Below, piece by piece: positions 15,101 through 60,449 of a DNA stretch of 64,000 nucleotides; the stretch's first letter is position 1; the number at the start of each line of letters is the position of its first letter. Location: NCBI RefSeq assembly GCF_012395815.1, contig NZ_JAAZQQ010000006.1:1-64000 (forward strand), read 5' to 3'. Below the pieces are notes generated by a model that did not search any database, was not told the origin of the DNA, and saw nothing but the letters and a program-made list of their open reading frames with translations. Both the position numbers and the translations under genes were made by a program. Origin of the DNA: Roseicyclus persicicus. Its GTDB lineage: Bacteria > Pseudomonadota > Alphaproteobacteria > Rhodobacterales > Rhodobacteraceae.

Positions 15101-17413
15101 TTACCGGCGGGCGGCCGCGACCAGCGCCTGGCCCAGCGCGAGGCCGCCGTCGTTCGCGGGGGTGGCCTGGTGGTGCAGGACGGGCAGCCCGTCGAGCGCG
15201 CGGAGGGTCAGGTCGAGCAGGAGCGCGTTCTGGAAACAGCCCCCCGAGAGCGCCACGGCCACGGCGCGGCCGGCCTCCAGCTCGGCGCGGGCGAGGTCGG
15301 CGAAGGCGGTGGCCAGCGTGACGTGGAACAGCGCGGCGAGGGTTGCAGGCGGCGGCGCGTCGGGGGCGAGGGCGGCGGCGAAGAGCGGGGCGGGGTCGAT
15401 GGCGCCGGCCGTGACGGGCAGGGCGAGGGGGGCGGGGGTGCCGCGGGCCAGCGCCTCGAGCGCCATGGCGGCCTCGCCCTCATGGCTCTGCCGGTCCGGG
15501 GCCGCGCCGAGGAGGGCGGCGAAGCCGTCGAAGAGGCGCCCGGCCGAGGAGGAGAGCGGCGCGTTCAGGCCCTGCGCGATCGCCTGCCGCAGGGGGGCAA
15601 GCGGCTTGTCGGGCCAGAGGCCCTCCGCGCGGCGGTGCAGGCCCGCCTGGTCGAGGCGCGCCAGCGCGTTGCGCCAGGGCTCCCGGTTCGCCGCGTCGCC
15701 GCCGGGCAGGGGGGCGGGCTTCAGCCAGGCCGCGCGGGCAAAGCCCGCGTAACCGCCCACCAGCACCTCGCCGCCCCAGATCGTCCCGTCCGGCCCCAGC
15801 CCCAGCCCGTCCAGCACGATCCCCGCCACCGGCCCGCCGTCGCGGGGCCAGAGGTGTTCGCCGAGGCAGCTTGCCAGATGCGCGTGGTGGTGCTGGATCT
15901 CGACCAGCTCCAGCCCCTGCGCCTCGGCCATGGCGCGGGCGACCTGGCTGGCCCGGTAGCCCGGGTGCAGGTCGCAGGCGAGCCGCGCGGGCGCGTGGTC
16001 GAAGAGCTGCGCGTAATCCGCCACCGCCTTGCGGAACTCGTCGAAACACAGCCGGTCGTCGAGATCGCCGAGGTGATGGGACAGGAGCGCCTGCCCGGTC
16101 CTCGTCAGGCAGATCGCGCCCTTCATCTGCCCGCCCAGCGCCAGCACGTCCGGCGCGTCCTCGAAGCCCGGAGGGAGCGGCAGGGTGCCCGGCACGCGGC
16201 CGCGGCCCCGGCGCAGGATCATCGGCCCGTGGGCCGTGACCCGCTCCACGCTGTCGTCGAGCCGCCGGCGGATGTCGCGGTCGTGCAGCAGGAGCGCGTC
16301 GGCGAAGCGCCCGAGCTTCTCCCGCGCCTCGGTGTTGCCGATCACCTGCGGCTCGCCCGAGAGGTTGCCCGAGGTCATCACCAGCGGGCGGCCGACCGCG
16401 TCGAGCAGCAGATGGTGGAGCGGCGTGTAGGGCAGCATCCAGCCAAGGGTGGTCTGGCCGGGGGCGAGCGCGTCGGGCAGGGTGTCGCCTGTGCGGGCGA
16501 GGAGCAGGATGGGGGCGGCGGGGCTTTTCAGGCGGTCCCATTCGGCCTCGGTGGGGGCGGCATGGGTGCGGATCATGGCCTCGGTGCCCATGAGGGCCAG
16601 CGGCTTGGTCGGGCGGCGCTTGCGGGCGCGGAGACGGGCGATGGCCTCGGCGTCCGTGGCGTCGCAGGCGAGGTGGAAACCGCCGAGGCCCTTGATGGCA
16701 AGGATGTGACCGCTGCGCAGGAGCCGGGCGGCGTCCGGGATGGCGGCGTCGCCTGGGGGGCTCTGCCCCCCGTCGCCACGGGCGACTCCCCCCGGAGTAT
16801 TTTCCGAAGCAAAGATGGAGGCGGTCGGTTCCAGCCACAGATGCGGCCCGCAGTCGGGGCAGGCGACGGGCTGGGCGTGGAACCGGCGGTCGCCGGGGTC
16901 CTCGTATTCGGCGCGGCAGGCGGGGCACATCTCGAAGGCGGCCATGGCGGTCTGCGCCCGGTCGTAGGGCAGCCGGTCGAGGATCGAGAAGCGCGGGCCG
17001 CAATGGGTGCAGTTGGCGAAGGCATAGCCGGCGCGGCGGTCGGCGGGGTCGCGGATCTCGGCCAGGCAGGCGGGGCAGGTGGCGGCGTCCGGGGTCACGC
17101 GGGTGCGGGCGCCGACCCCGTCGGAGGGGGCGATGAGGAAGGCCGCGGGCGCGGTGGCGAAGCGGTGCGGCGCGGTCTCCACCGCGTCGACGCGGGCGAG
17201 CGGCGGCGCCTCGGCCGAGAGGGCCGCGAGGAAGGCCTGCGTCGCCCCGCGGGCGCGGATCAGCACGCCCTCGGCGTCGTTCAGCACCTCGCCGGTCACG
17301 CCATGGGCCTGCGCCAGTTGCCACACGAAGGGGCGGAAGCCCACGCCCTGCACCTGCCCGCGGACGCGGATGGCGAGCCCGTCGAGGGGGGCTTGGGGCG
17401 CGGTGTCGGGCAA
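15101..17413 (-). CDS. hypF: HypF, carbamoyltransferase of hydrogenase maturation, with an in-frame repeat insertion
   Basis: HypF uses carbamoyl phosphate and ATP to carbamoylate HypE. The 770-residue protein has, in order, an acylphosphatase domain (about 10-95, VRGQVQGVGFRPFVW), two zinc-finger-like cysteine sets (CPACLAEI...CTHC and CPACRAEY...CPDC, about 110-190), a YrdC-like domain (about 220-400, ILAIKGLGGFHLACDA) and a Kae1-like domain (about 410-765, with QHHHAHLASC). Residues 198-221, between the zinc fingers and the YrdC domain, are encoded by a copy of a palindromic repeat also found in intergenic DNA. The start is TTG with a good AGGAGA seven bases upstream; an in-frame stop precedes it. 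Confidence 0.96.
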   Translation of the reverse strand: MPDTAPQAPLDGLAIRVRGQVQGVGFRPFVWQLAQAHGVTGEVLNDAEGVLIRARGATQAFLAALSAEAPPLARVDAVETAPHRFATAPAAFLIAPSDGVGARTRVTPDAATCPACLAEIRDPADRRAGYAFANCTHCGPRFSILDRLPYDRAQTAMAAFEMCPACRAEYEDPGDRRFHAQPVACPDCGPHLWLEPTASIFASENTPGGVARGDGGQSPPGDAAIPDAARLLRSGHILAIKGLGGFHLACDATDAEAIARLRARKRRPTKPLALMGTEAMIRTHAAPTEAEWDRLKSPAAPILLLARTGDTLPDALAPGQTTLGWMLPYTPLHHLLLDAVGRPLVMTSGNLSGEPQVIGNTEAREKLGRFADALLLHDRDIRRRLDDSVERVTAHGPMILRRGRGRVPGTLPLPPGFEDAPDVLALGGQMKGAICLTRTGQALLSHHLGDLDDRLCFDEFRKAVADYAQLFDHAPARLACDLHPGYRASQVARAMAEAQGLELVEIQHHHAHLASCLGEHLWPRDGGPVAGIVLDGLGLGPDGTIWGGEVLVGGYAGFARAAWLKPAPLPGGDAANREPWRNALARLDQAGLHRRAEGLWPDKPLAPLRQAIAQGLNAPLSSSAGRLFDGFAALLGAAPDRQSHEGEAAMALEALARGTPAPLALPVTAGAIDPAPLFAAALAPDAPPPATLAALFHVTLATAFADLARAELEAGRAVAVALSGGCFQNALLLDLTLRALDGLPVLHHQATPANDGGLALGQALVAAARR
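16752..16821 (-). repeat. Palindromic repeat copy A, inside hypF
   Basis: Read on the hypF strand, this 70-base segment starts CCTCCATCTTTGCTT, continues to ACTCCGGGGGG, and ends with two hairpins: GTCGCC/GGCGAC (loop CGT) and GGGGGGC/GCCCCCC (loop AGA). It matches copy C at 60381-60449 along its whole length at about nine positions in ten. The first part is also shared with copy B at 20562-20613. It is read in frame as residues 198-221 of HypF. Confidence 0.85.
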
Positions 17414-17516
17414 GGCCAGTCTCCTTGCGGGAATGGGCGCAGCCTAGCGTGGGCGCCGCGGCCTGCAAACGGCTTCGCGCTTGCCCGGCCCCGCGCCGCC
17501 CGCCATGCTGCGCGCC

Positions 17517-17885
17517 ATGGCAGCGCCCCCCACCACCATCCGGCTCCGTCTCCTGTTCGGCGAGGACGGCACCATGTTCGGCCCCGGCAAGGCCGACCTG
17601 CTGGAGGGGATCGCCGCCGAGGGCTCGATCGCCGCGGCGGGGCGGCGGATGGGGATGAGCTACCGCCGCGCCTGGTCGCTGGTGGAGGAGATGAATGCCG
17701 CCTTCGCCCGGCCCCTGGTGGACACCAGCCGCGGTGGCGCGCGGGGCGGCGGCGCGCGGCTGACCGGCGAGGGGGCGGCGGTGCTGGCGCATTACCGCGC
17801 GCTCGAGGCGCAGGTGGCAGCCCTCGGCGCGCCCGAGATCGACGGCATCGCGCGGCTGCTGCGGACGGGCGCGCCGGGCCGCTGA
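17517..17885 (+). CDS. ModE-like winged-helix regulator, DNA-binding domain only
   Basis: The 122-residue product matches the N-terminal LysR-like helix-turn-helix domain of ModE, the molybdate-responsive regulator. Typical features are IRLRLLFGEDGTMFGPGKADLLEGI, GSIAAAGRRMGMSYRRAW and the wing region GGGARLTGEG. It has no C-terminal TOBE/Mop domain, so molybdate sensing would need another protein or another mode. It lies directly upstream of modABC and divergent from hypF. The start is uncertain: ATG 17517 gives the canonical N-terminus; ATG 17505 or TTG 17481 would be longer. Confidence 0.85.
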   Translation: MAAPPTTIRLRLLFGEDGTMFGPGKADLLEGIAAEGSIAAAGRRMGMSYRRAWSLVEEMNAAFARPLVDTSRGGARGGGARLTGEGAAVLAHYRALEAQVAALGAPEIDGIARLLRTGAPGR

Positions 17886-17937
17886 CCCACCCCGGGCCCC
17901 AAGGCGAAACCAGCGCTTGCCGGGCGCGGCCCCGGCG

Positions 17938-17961
17938 CGTTATGTCTCACCATACATATCG
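17938..17961. promoter_or_regulatory. Mo-box (ModE-type operator) before modA
   Basis: The segment has half-sites CGTTATGTCT and ATACATATCG around a 4-base spacer, with 8 of 10 positions palindromic. This is the pattern of ModE/Mop operators (CG-N-TAT... arms flanked by CG). It lies 22 bases before the modA ATG and 52 bases after the ModE-like gene, so it should overlap the modA promoter and mediate repression by a ModE-type protein when molybdate is plentiful. Confidence 0.7.
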
Positions 17962-17983
17962 ACCCGCCCCGACGAGGTGTCCC

Positions 17984-18769
17984 ATGCCGCCCCGGCCCGA
18001 TCTGCCCCGCCGCCTGCGCGCCGGTTTTGCGGCGCTGGCCCTTGCGCTGGCCCCCGCCGCCGCGCCGGCGCAGGACCTGACCGTGCTGGCCGCGGCCTCG
18101 CTCGGCACCGCGCTCGACGAGATCGCCACCCTCTGGGCTGCCGAGACGGGCGGCACGCTCACGCTGGTCCTGGCCGGCTCCTCCGCCCTCGCGCGCCAGA
18201 TCGAGGCGGGCGCCCCGGCCGATGTCTTCATCTCGGCCAGCCCCGCCTGGATGGACACGGTCGCGGCCGCGGGGCTGGTGGCCGAGGGCAGCCGGTCGGA
18301 CCTCCTGACCAACAGCCTCGTGGTGGTGGCAGGCGCGGCGGATGCGGCGCCCCTCGACCTTGCAGACCCCGGCGCGCTCCCGGCCCGGATCGGGGACGGC
18401 CGGCTGTCGCTCGCCCTGATCGAGGCGGTCCCGGCGGGCATCTACGCGCGGCAGGCCCTCGCCAATCTCGGCCTCTGGGACGCGGTCGCGCCCCGCGTGG
18501 TCGAATCGGACAACGTGCGCGCGGCGCTGGCCCTCGTCGCCGTGGGCGCCGCGCCGGTGGGCATCGTCTACGCCAGCGACGCCGTGGCCGAGCCGCGCGT
18601 CGCCGTGATCGCCGCGGTCCCGCCCGAGGCCCATGACCCGATCCTCTATCCCGCCGCGGCCATCGCCACGGGCGACATGGCCGGGGCGCGGGCCTTCCTC
18701 ACCTTCCTGCAGTCCGAGGCCGCCGCGGCCGTGTTCCGCGCCCAGGGCTTCGGCCTGCCCGGCGGCTGA
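17984..18769 (+). CDS. modA: ModA, periplasmic molybdate-binding protein
   Basis: ModA captures molybdate (or tungstate) in the periplasm for ModBC. The 261-residue precursor begins with a cationic signal peptide rich in Ala/Leu, cleaved near APAQ/D, and continues DLTVLAAASLGTALDEI. Oxyanion-contacting residues lie in AGSSALARQIEAGAPADVFISAS and in the VRAALALV region, as expected for the family. The ATG at 17984 follows a weak GAGG. It overlaps modB by one base (TGATG). Confidence 0.95.
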   Translation: MPPRPDLPRRLRAGFAALALALAPAAAPAQDLTVLAAASLGTALDEIATLWAAETGGTLTLVLAGSSALARQIEAGAPADVFISASPAWMDTVAAAGLVAEGSRSDLLTNSLVVVAGAADAAPLDLADPGALPARIGDGRLSLALIEAVPAGIYARQALANLGLWDAVAPRVVESDNVRAALALVAVGAAPVGIVYASDAVAEPRVAVIAAVPPEAHDPILYPAAAIATGDMAGARAFLTFLQSEAAAAVFRAQGFGLPGG

Positions 18770-19464
18770 TGTTCGCCCCGCCCAGCCCCGCGGAATGGGA
18801 GATCCTCGCGCTGTCGCTGCGGGTGGGCCTGCTTGCCGTGGCGCTGGCGCTGCCCCCGGCGCTGCTGGCGGCGCATGCGCTGGCGCGCTGGTCCTTCCCG
18901 GGCAAGGCGCTGTTCAACGGGCTCGTGCACCTGCCGCTTGTCCTGCCGCCGGTGGTGACGGGATACCTCCTGCTGCTCGCCTTCGGGCCGCAGGCGCCGC
19001 TCGGCCAGGCGCTTGATGCCGTCGGCCTGCCCATCGCCTTCCGCTGGACCGGCGCGGCCGTGGCCGCCGCCGTCATGGCCTTCCCGCTGATGGTCCGCGC
19101 CATGCGCCTGTCGATCGAGGCGGTGGACCCCCGGCTGGAACAGGCCGCGGCCACCCTCGGCGCCGGGCGGCCCGCGGTGGTCCTGACGGTGACGCTGCCC
19201 CTGGCCCTGCCGGGGGTCGTGGCGGGGGCGATCCTCGGCTTCGCCAAGGCGCTGGGGGAATTCGGCGCCACGATCACCTTCGTCTCCAACATCCCCGGCG
19301 AGACGCGCACCCTGCCGCTTGCCGTCTACGCCTTTCTCCAGGTGCCGGGGGGCGAGGGGGCGGCGACGCGGATGGTGGTCCTTGCCGTGGTGCTGTCGAT
19401 GGGGGCGCTGCTGGTCTCGGAATGGGTCGCGGCGCGCGCGGCGCGGCGGGTGGCCGGCGCATGA
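18769..19464 (+). CDS. modB: ModB, molybdate ABC transporter permease
   Basis: ModB forms the homodimeric membrane channel for molybdate. The 231-residue protein has five hydrophobic segments and the EAA-type ATPase-contact loop (AATLGAGRPAVVLTVTLPLALPGVVAGAILGFAKALGEFGAT), which is the classic molybdate/sulfate permease signature. The start ATG shares its A with the modA stop, and the stop overlaps modC by four bases, indicating a single modABC message. Confidence 0.96.
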   Translation: MFAPPSPAEWEILALSLRVGLLAVALALPPALLAAHALARWSFPGKALFNGLVHLPLVLPPVVTGYLLLLAFGPQAPLGQALDAVGLPIAFRWTGAAVAAAVMAFPLMVRAMRLSIEAVDPRLEQAAATLGAGRPAVVLTVTLPLALPGVVAGAILGFAKALGEFGATITFVSNIPGETRTLPLAVYAFLQVPGGEGAATRMVVLAVVLSMGALLVSEWVAARAARRVAGA

Positions 19465-20555
19465 GCCTGTCGGTCGAGATCGCCCACCGCTTCGAGGGCC
19501 TCGCACTCGACGTGGCCTTCGACGCGCCGCCGGGCGTGACCGCGCTGATCGGGCGGTCGGGGGCGGGCAAGACCACGGTCGCCAACGTGATCGCGGGGCT
19601 GATGCGCCCCGACCGCGCCCGCATCGCGCTGGACGGCGCGGTGCTGGTGGACACCGCCGCCGGGCTCTGGCCGCCGCCGCAGGCCCGCCGGGTCGGCTAC
19701 GTGTTCCAGGAGGCGCGGCTCTTCCCGCACCTGTCGGTCCGGCAGAACCTGCTCTACGGCGCCCGCCGCCGGGGCCGCCTGCGCGAGGGCCAGGCCGAGC
19801 TCGGGCCCGTGACCGACCTCCTCGGCATCGCGGCGCTCCTCGCCCGCCGCCCCGGCGCGCTCTCGGGCGGCGAACGCCAGCGCGTCGCCATCGGCCGGGC
19901 GCTCCTGTCGGGCCCCCGCCTCCTCCTCCTCGACGAGCCGCTCGCCGCCCTCGACCCGGCCCGGAAATCCGAGATCCTGCCCTACCTCGAACGCCTCCGC
20001 GACCAGTCCCGCCTGCCGATCCTCTACGTCTCCCACGCGATGGAGGAGGTCGCGCGGCTCGCTACCACCGTCGTCGCCCTCGACGCCGGTCGCGTCGTGG
20101 CCCGGGGCAGCGCGGCCGAGGTGCTGTCGGACCCCGGCGCCGTCCCCGCCCTCGACCCCGGCACGGCCGGCGCGGTGATCGAGGCGGTGGTCGAGGCGCA
20201 GGAGGCCGACGGCCTCACCCGCCTCGCCGGCGCCGGCGGCACCCTCTACCTGCCGCGCCTCGACGCGGCGCCGGGCGCCCGCGTCCGCCTCCGCATCGAG
20301 GCGCAGGACGTGCTGATCGCCCGCGACCGCCCGGCGGGTCTCTCGGCGCTGAACCTGCTCCCCGCCCAGGTGCTCTCGGTCCACCCCGGCCGCGGCCCCG
20401 GCGCCCTGGTGCGCCTGCGCGCCGGCGACGCCATCCTGCTCGCCCGCGTCACGCAACGCTCCGTCGCGGCGCTCGGCCTCGCCCCGGGGCTGCCCGTGCA
20501 CGCGGTGGTCAAGTCCCTCGCCGTCGCCTCCGGCAACATCGGCACCGCGGGCTGA
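19461..20555 (+). CDS. modC: ModC, molybdate ABC transporter ATPase
   Basis: ModC powers molybdate import. The 364-residue protein has a P-loop (GRSGAGKTT, about 32-40), Q-loop (FQEARLFPHLSV), signature LSGGERQR, Walker B LLLLDEPLAALD and switch His in YVSHAMEE. The last roughly 65 residues form a TOBE/Mop domain (LLPAQVLSVHPGRGPGALVRLRAGD) that can bind oxyanion for regulation. The ATG overlaps the modB stop. The next gene converges, with a repeat-derived hairpin between them. Confidence 0.96.
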   Translation: MSLSVEIAHRFEGLALDVAFDAPPGVTALIGRSGAGKTTVANVIAGLMRPDRARIALDGAVLVDTAAGLWPPPQARRVGYVFQEARLFPHLSVRQNLLYGARRRGRLREGQAELGPVTDLLGIAALLARRPGALSGGERQRVAIGRALLSGPRLLLLDEPLAALDPARKSEILPYLERLRDQSRLPILYVSHAMEEVARLATTVVALDAGRVVARGSAAEVLSDPGAVPALDPGTAGAVIEAVVEAQEADGLTRLAGAGGTLYLPRLDAAPGARVRLRIEAQDVLIARDRPAGLSALNLLPAQVLSVHPGRGPGALVRLRAGDAILLARVTQRSVAALGLAPGLPVHAVVKSLAVASGNIGTAG

Positions 20556-20561
20556 CCGCCC

Positions 20562-20613
20562 CCCCATCTTTGCTTGAAAAATACTCCGGGGGTCCGGGGG
20601 CTGGCCCCCGGTC
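20562..20613 (+). repeat. Palindromic repeat copy B between modC and the ABC ATPase gene
   Basis: The copy reads CCCCATCTTTGCTT then AAAAATACTCCGGGGG, followed by a hairpin with arms CCGGGGGC and GCCCCCGG. It shares the CATCTTTGCTT...TACTCCGGGGG core with copies A and C but has a different second half. It lies between the convergent modC and ATPase genes, where its stem-loop could serve as a bidirectional transcription end. Confidence 0.75.
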
Positions 20614-20699
20614 CGCCCTCACCCGCCAGCTCCACGCCGGACCCTTCGACCGCCGCACCTTGTCCCCGCGAGGAGCGTCCGCGACGAGCCGCCCCGCCC

Positions 20700-22814
<2,115 letters not shown>

Positions 22815-60380: not shown

Positions 60381-60449
60381 CCTCCATCTTTGCTTAGGAA
60401 GTACTCCGGGGGGAGTCGCCAAAGGCGACGGGGGGCAGCGCCCCCCACC
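60381..60449 (+). repeat. Palindromic repeat copy C between psuK and rpsB
   Basis: The copy reads CCTCCATCTTTGCTT, then TACTCCGGGGGG, then hairpins GTCGCC/GGCGAC (loop AAA) and GGGGGGC/GCCCCCC (loop AGC-type). It is almost the same as the copy inside hypF (16752-16821), with differences mostly in loops. It lies 38 bases upstream of the psuK start codon in the divergent psuK-rpsB region. Confidence 0.85.

Follow-up and report, generated by a model that had tools for sequence, protein, structure and literature searches.

A gene-end repeat of Rhodobacteraceae, very probably carried in frame in the HypF linker of Roseicyclus persicicus and in other enzymes

The HypF protein of R. persicicus contains, between its zinc fingers and its YrdC domain, a segment that is a copy of a dispersed repeat of gene 3′ ends, which very probably entered the linker in frame and is tolerated there as a flexible loop. 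The same process, with the same high confidence, would account for in-frame copies in XdhB, XdhA, BchB, and an RlmL-like methyltransferase. In the window, i.e., the whole stretch of 64,000 nucleotides that was analyzed, the relevant features are as follows:

15101..17413, minus strand: hypF, the host gene, a 770 aa ORF with Acylphosphatase, zf-HYPF, Sua5_yciO_yrdC (YrdC), HypF_C, and HypF_C_2 all above the Pfam cutoffs
16752..16821, minus strand (the hypF sense strand): repeat element in hypF, in frame as HypF residues 198-221
16794..16816, minus strand: conserved head ATCTTTGCTTCGGAAAATACTCC of the hypF element, among the 55 own-genome pattern matches
19422-20555: ORF, by its look a putative ABC-transporter ATPase
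20554..20592, plus strand: intergenic copy sharing the head only, its pattern head ~10 bases after the stop of ORF 19422-20555 (L030)
60381..60447, plus strand: intergenic copy between predicted divergent genes (L002)

In a comparison within the window, the 70 nt at 16752-16821 (minus strand) matched 60381-60447 (plus strand) with 89.7% identity over 68 nt (E 1.7e-20). The match to 20554-20592 (plus strand), 87.5% over 40 nt, covers the head only, and the hairpin tail of this copy (20562) differs. These results bear out the sequence-only reading, which had reported an element shared by hypF and intergenic DNA and had placed it in frame on the hypF sense strand, where it makes up residues 198-221. 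The T-rich strand of the hypF element, GGAGTATTTTCC, is antisense to hypF, and the copy has no stop in any of the six frames; judging from the open frame, the element would be translated within HypF.

Is the segment a regular part of HypF? HypF was present in 65 of 394 genomes of the family, and the best 30 loci from these were taken (our own included) together with 80 from named contigs. The linker, defined as running from the first finger to the start of YrdC, was parsed in 98 of the 110 loci (12 unparsed); 95 of these 98 are distinct in DNA, with three identical pairs, and the loci other than our own number 97 (94 distinct). The own linker has 96 residues, compared with 72-95 in 27 other family HypFs (from the best 30 of 65) and 72-87 in the 70 linkers from named contigs. 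The repeat core was found in 0 of the 97 other linkers read. The segment had been described beforehand as one not expected in HypF, and the observation that would have contradicted this, the same segment in other HypFs, did not turn up among the 97 linkers read. One might argue that the segment is native and that its likeness to the repeat is due to chance or base composition, as the window has a G+C content of 71% and runs of G or C are consequently common. However, both the 68-nt match to the copy at 60381, with its E value, and the core-free linkers of the other HypFs speak against this reading, to which we assign a nearly negligible probability. One other HypF (L059, from G063) also has a long linker, of 95 residues, with an unrelated sequence at the same domain boundary and without the repeat core.

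Only 1 of the 13 genomes of the genus was found to carry hypF, and among the best 30 of 65 family loci the closest HypF shares 71% identity with our own. As this leaves no nucleotide-level empty site, we infer the hypF insertion from homologues. At the codon level, a related HypF (L032) reads LWLE-VDGAEQ-PGD where the own HypF reads LWLE-PTASIFASENTPGGVARGDGGQSP-PGD. Compared with relatives, the element thus takes the place of ~6 native codons with 24. The earlier figure of ~24 added residues therefore stands insofar as residues 198-221 are encoded by the element, but the net gain is ~18-19 residues. By eye, and with no nucleotide-level empty site for comparison, we saw neither terminal inverted repeats nor a target site duplication at the HypF junctions. 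In another genome of the family, a repeat copy (G017:C1:398593-398619) starts 12 bases past the end of the hypF match; as that match starts at query residue 10, the copy lies at or over the hypF start.

The placement of the element between the zinc fingers and YrdC, also proposed earlier, agrees with the Pfam limits (best zinc-finger match 162-194, YrdC 231-403). Decay of hypF was considered as a reading and rejected, as the Pfam domains are intact. An AlphaFold model of HypF (28 sequences) had a mean pLDDT of 90.1 and a pTM of 0.90. Besides the first three residues, only 209-220 fell below a pLDDT of 50; the block means were 53 for 201-210 and 44 for 211-220, and residues 198-205 were modelled as a helix. 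The prediction for the insert is thus a loop that is loose over most of its length and is flanked by two domains modelled with good confidence.

The repeat itself is made up of a conserved head (T-rich strand GGAGTATTTNNNAAGCAAAGATG) and, ahead of it, short G+C hairpins that differ from copy to copy; it is not one long palindrome. With up to 3 mismatches, the head pattern found both intergenic copies in the 64,000-nt window and missed the hypF copy, because the hypF head has an additional base. When the window was dinucleotide-shuffled 100 times, the pattern gave 0 matches. In the 3.71 Mb genome, the pattern ATCTTTGCN{0,6}AAATACTCC had 55 matches (27 forward and 28 reverse; reversed-pattern control, 0), and the 23-nt head with up to 3 mismatches had 72 (control, 0), which sets a minimum of 72 for the copy number of the genome. 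A BLAST search for the repeat in the own genome returned 40 scored matches. No match to Rfam was found in window positions 16000-21000 up to an E of 1.

The genus-type head was matched in 13 of the 394 family genomes and, within the genus itself, in 8 of 13. A broader head, CCCGGRRTATTTN{4,12}AAG, matched 41 of 81 relatives: 37 of the 49 family members and 4 of the 32 genomes from elsewhere, the latter with 1-3 matches each, while the control gave single matches in 3 genomes. The repeat is typical of part of the Rhodobacteraceae. Its tails differ by lineage, for example GGACAGAAGAAG in G014, GGAAAGATGAAAG in G037, and AAACAGAGAAG or AAACGAAGAAG in G002. Plasmid records yielded one match, in Roseinatronobacter sp. 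S2, which covers 69% of the repeat at 83% identity and coincides with no annotated feature. A second repeat type, TTCATCTTTCCNCAAATACGCCC, is found in this genome (G000) at loci L148, L163, and L192 and in the xdhA of L271; at up to 3 mismatches, it is absent from the window.

To which sites in the genome does the repeat belong? Using gene calls from our own codon-usage script rather than the annotation, we placed 77 own-genome copies, taken from fetched loci only, and found 74 outside predicted genes and 3 inside. The 74 comprise 35 in convergent gaps, 36 in codirectional gaps, and 3 in divergent gaps. As background we took 144 kb of this genome, made up of the window plus four stretches of 20 kb each, with 67 gaps in all; of the gap length there, 11.6% is convergent and 26.8% divergent. 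Convergent sites are therefore strongly favored (p 2.4e-14) and divergent sites avoided (p 5e-7). Furthermore, a set of 56 copies analyzed earlier included 36 with a gene ahead of them on the head strand, and 12 of these begin within 10 bases of the stop codon of that gene. The convergent enrichment, the avoidance of divergent sites, and the starts near stop codons together indicate a repeat of gene 3′ ends. Among the codirectional copies, the two orientations are about equally common (21 vs 15, p 0.41), for which reason a plain one-way terminator was rejected. A terminator scan (a stem of at least 5 pairs, then 5 T in 8) made no call at 16752, 20561, or 60381.

The three placed copies that lie inside predicted genes of this genome are those in hypF, in xdhB (the molybdenum subunit of xanthine dehydrogenase), and in the gene of an RlmL-like methyltransferase. 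In addition, the own xdhA carries the second repeat type in frame (a 39-nt match, with 94.9% identity and an E of 1e-11, to a copy that lies outside predicted genes). Another genome of the set, G005, has 3 of its 60 copies within genes, namely xdhB, bchB, and that of the same RlmL-like methyltransferase, and its xdhA linker matches another G005 copy with 87.5% identity over 72 nt (E 5.6e-19). In-frame copies in XdhA were recognized in G014, G005, and G000 by matches to other copies and in G010 by similar sequence; those in the methyltransferase were found in G000 and G005. The further in-frame copies for which the sequence-only reading had proposed a search thus exist, both in this genome and in relatives. 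A scan of 217 copies gave 14 in-gene candidates, all in hypF, xdhB, xdhA, or bchB, and missed the methyltransferase copies; its host list is biased because the loci had largely been fetched for hypF, xdhB, bchB, or the repeat.

In HypF, XdhB, BchB, and XdhA, i.e., in all hosts but one of the five, the copy is at a domain boundary. In XdhB, it lies between MoCoBD_1, which ends at 377, and MoCoBD_2, which starts at 459; in BchB, between the domain limits 406 and 476; and in XdhA, between 85 and 121 (numbered in the fragment). The methyltransferase copy is inside a domain and not at a boundary. Together with residues 209-220 of HypF, the sole interior stretch with a pLDDT under 50, these positions fit the earlier suggestion of a tolerant domain boundary. 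The sense strand is the T-rich strand in XdhB, BchB, and the methyltransferase, and the T-rich strand is antisense in HypF and XdhA. The frames of the in-gene copies also differ among hosts; the notion that all of them use one frame was ruled out by the methyltransferase and XdhA copies. In L281 (G014), the neighbors xdhA and xdhB each contain an in-frame copy of one repeat, and the two copies are oriented oppositely with respect to their genes.

We propose that a copy of this repeat, whose usual site is the 3′ flank of genes, entered hypF at the loop between zinc finger and YrdC, by insertion or recombination, replacing ~6 native codons with the frame kept. The segment would then be translated as a flexible loop and would be neutral for the enzyme. 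The same process would have put copies into XdhB, XdhA, BchB, and the RlmL-like methyltransferase. For the 77 own-genome copies, 378 of 462 copy-frame combinations lack a stop, probably owing to the high G+C; as the repeat is stop-free in most frames, in-frame landings are easy. Selection would keep those landings that the protein tolerates, mostly in linkers.

XdhB and BchB offer a view of one linker across many species. The XdhB linker was read in 28 of the best 30 loci, taken from 52 genomes with a match (2 not found), and the BchB linker was read in 24 of 29 (5 not found). The core TATT[TG] is present in the sense strand of 20 of the 28 XdhB linkers, with 1.22 expected from the rest of the gene, and in 13 of the 24 BchB linkers, with 2.90 expected; these expectations ignore relatedness, which makes the Poisson values for both counts too strong. 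The XdhB linkers that failed the core test are those of G030, G007, G044, G019, G017, and G039, as well as G003 and G004, whose peptides resemble decayed copies.

Within a single genus, the same XdhB slot holds SI[FSY]EAKM in G000, G005, G008, G010, and G012; DIFETEK in G002 and G011; SFPAKMK in G003 and G004; and RIFGKMK in G001, G006, and G009. Similarly, the BchB slot has a AAGCAAAG-type core in G008 and G012, in G004 with the frame broken, and in G003 with one letter off; the AAACAGAG type in G002, G005, and G010 and, frame broken, in G007; and another repeat type in G001, G006, and G009. The BchB of this genome (G000) is without a repeat, and no BchB match was found in G011.

At least four in-gene XdhB or BchB tails recur elsewhere within their own genome: that of G037 XdhB at C3:301927, C7:131926, and C13:89860, that of G002 BchB at C4:345754 and C6:11850, and that of G022 XdhB at C1:444087, while the G014 XdhB core recurs at 14 other listed places of G014, one of them the xdhA copy. 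The G047 XdhB tail is close, though not equal, to an own copy at C1:662867. The in-gene tails of G001 XdhB and BchB, G032 XdhB, and G044 BchB did not match the one own-genome copy compared for each. One slot with different types, and tails that recur in the own genome, indicate that the slots were filled repeatedly or were overwritten by recombination with other copies.

Could the inserted peptide have been selected for a function of its own, for example, as a binding loop? XdhB and BchB do keep the insert at one place in many species. However, the copies lie on both strands and in different frames among the hosts and encode unrelated peptides, which argues against a selected peptide. Moreover, the G000 BchB does without the insert, and the HypF loop is partly of low confidence in the AlphaFold model (the model of XdhB, with a mean pLDDT of 52, was too poor to use). 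We therefore regard a selected peptide as very unlikely.

Alternatively, the in-gene copies might act at the RNA level. A hairpin and T-tract in the xdhB or bchB coding strand would end transcription when ribosomes lag, and the reversed copy in hypF would stop antisense transcripts. The location of the elements at gene 3′ ends, the use of the T-rich strand as the sense strand in XdhB and BchB, and the hairpin-forming parts kept by several BchB and XdhB copies are in line with such a role, as is the folding of the HypF copy (z -2.85 vs shuffles) and of one BchB copy (z -2.17). On the other hand, the other six of the seven XdhB/BchB in-gene pieces folded gave z values of 0.09 to -1.78, little hairpin is left in the short XdhB form, the terminator scan called none of the window copies, and the codirectional copies lack an orientation bias. 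Consequently, we consider active in-gene copies unlikely in general; a translation-coupled terminator role inside xdhB or bchB is possible, if weakly supported.

The entry of a gene-end repeat into tolerant linkers remains our preferred reading. As a further-reaching idea, which we hold to be less likely than not, the XdhA, XdhB, and BchB linkers may be standing slots, rewritten repeatedly by the current repeat of the genome; the copies in coding DNA would then undergo concerted evolution with the non-coding ones, and the own HypF may be a newly opened slot. If this is true, part of the sequence of each of these enzymes would be set by a dispersed DNA repeat. Since one linker holds different types in close species, repeat copying can be tested through empty, filled, and refilled sites.

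The best descriptions of protein-coding repeats of this kind come from Rickettsia, and a few cases are enterobacterial (PMC2229807). The Rickettsia palindromic elements (RPEs) are intergenic and also in frame in conserved protein genes, with 19 reading frames reported; one RPE-bearing enzyme that was tested was still active, with a changed substrate affinity, and the elements form a long stem-loop and measure 105-146 bp (PMC2229807). Our repeat is likewise small and dispersed, intergenic and in frame within several conserved proteins, and to this extent the earlier comparison with Rickettsia holds. In contrast to the RPEs as described there, it is ~65 nt long with several short stems, belongs to Rhodobacteraceae, sits at gene 3′ ends, and occurs as different types in one linker. 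Because length, structure, and host all differ from that description, we do not class it as an RPE. ERIC, YPAL, and RU-3 are further small mobile repeats with in-frame fusions into protein genes (PMC2229807); as described, they differ in being 103-168 bp long and enterobacterial, some with terminal inverted repeats and target duplications. The GTAG- and CGTC-tagged REPs are short prokaryotic palindromic repeats, some within coding regions, and the word 'Rhodobacter' does not occur in the main text of the paper that describes them (PMC3733652). Their definition asks for a palindrome of 20-40 bp that has GTAG or CGTC at one of its ends. The conserved head of our repeat has neither CGTC nor GTAG in 77 of 77 copies; without regard to stem position, the hairpin part contains CGTC in 24 of the 77 (the other 53 have no CGTC at all) and GTAG in 4, and the repeat may or may not be a REP of the CGTC type. 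REPs of that class are linked to a REP-associated tyrosine transposase. Finally, the repeat resembles intrinsic terminators in its location at gene ends and in its G+C hairpin with a short T-rich tract behind it, but it differs from them in the lack of a scan call and of an orientation bias and in a conservation that reaches past the T tract. In the literature searched, judged by titles and the openings of abstracts, we found no earlier report of in-frame repeats in Rhodobacteraceae. That they are present in this family, whose genomes measure ~3-5 Mb, and that their hosts include enzymes of photosynthesis and metal enzymes, for the most part where two domains join, calls for a wider account of such elements.

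Some repeat-bearing linkers have frame breaks, namely bchB L312 (G004), bchB L313 (G007), and xdhB L287 (G007), and the long C and G runs of the repeat in them appear liable to slippage. The genome of G004 is a single contig, whereas that of G007 is rated 73% complete, so that sequencing error is possible. A short XdhB linker is also found in PDB entry 1jro, chain B, which we take to be the XdhB of Rhodobacter capsulatus. It spans residues ~381-400 and ends in PIATKKTQTTHYG, which, compared by eye with SISTTKKQTTPYH in G022, may be what is left of a decayed copy of the repeat that relatives carry.
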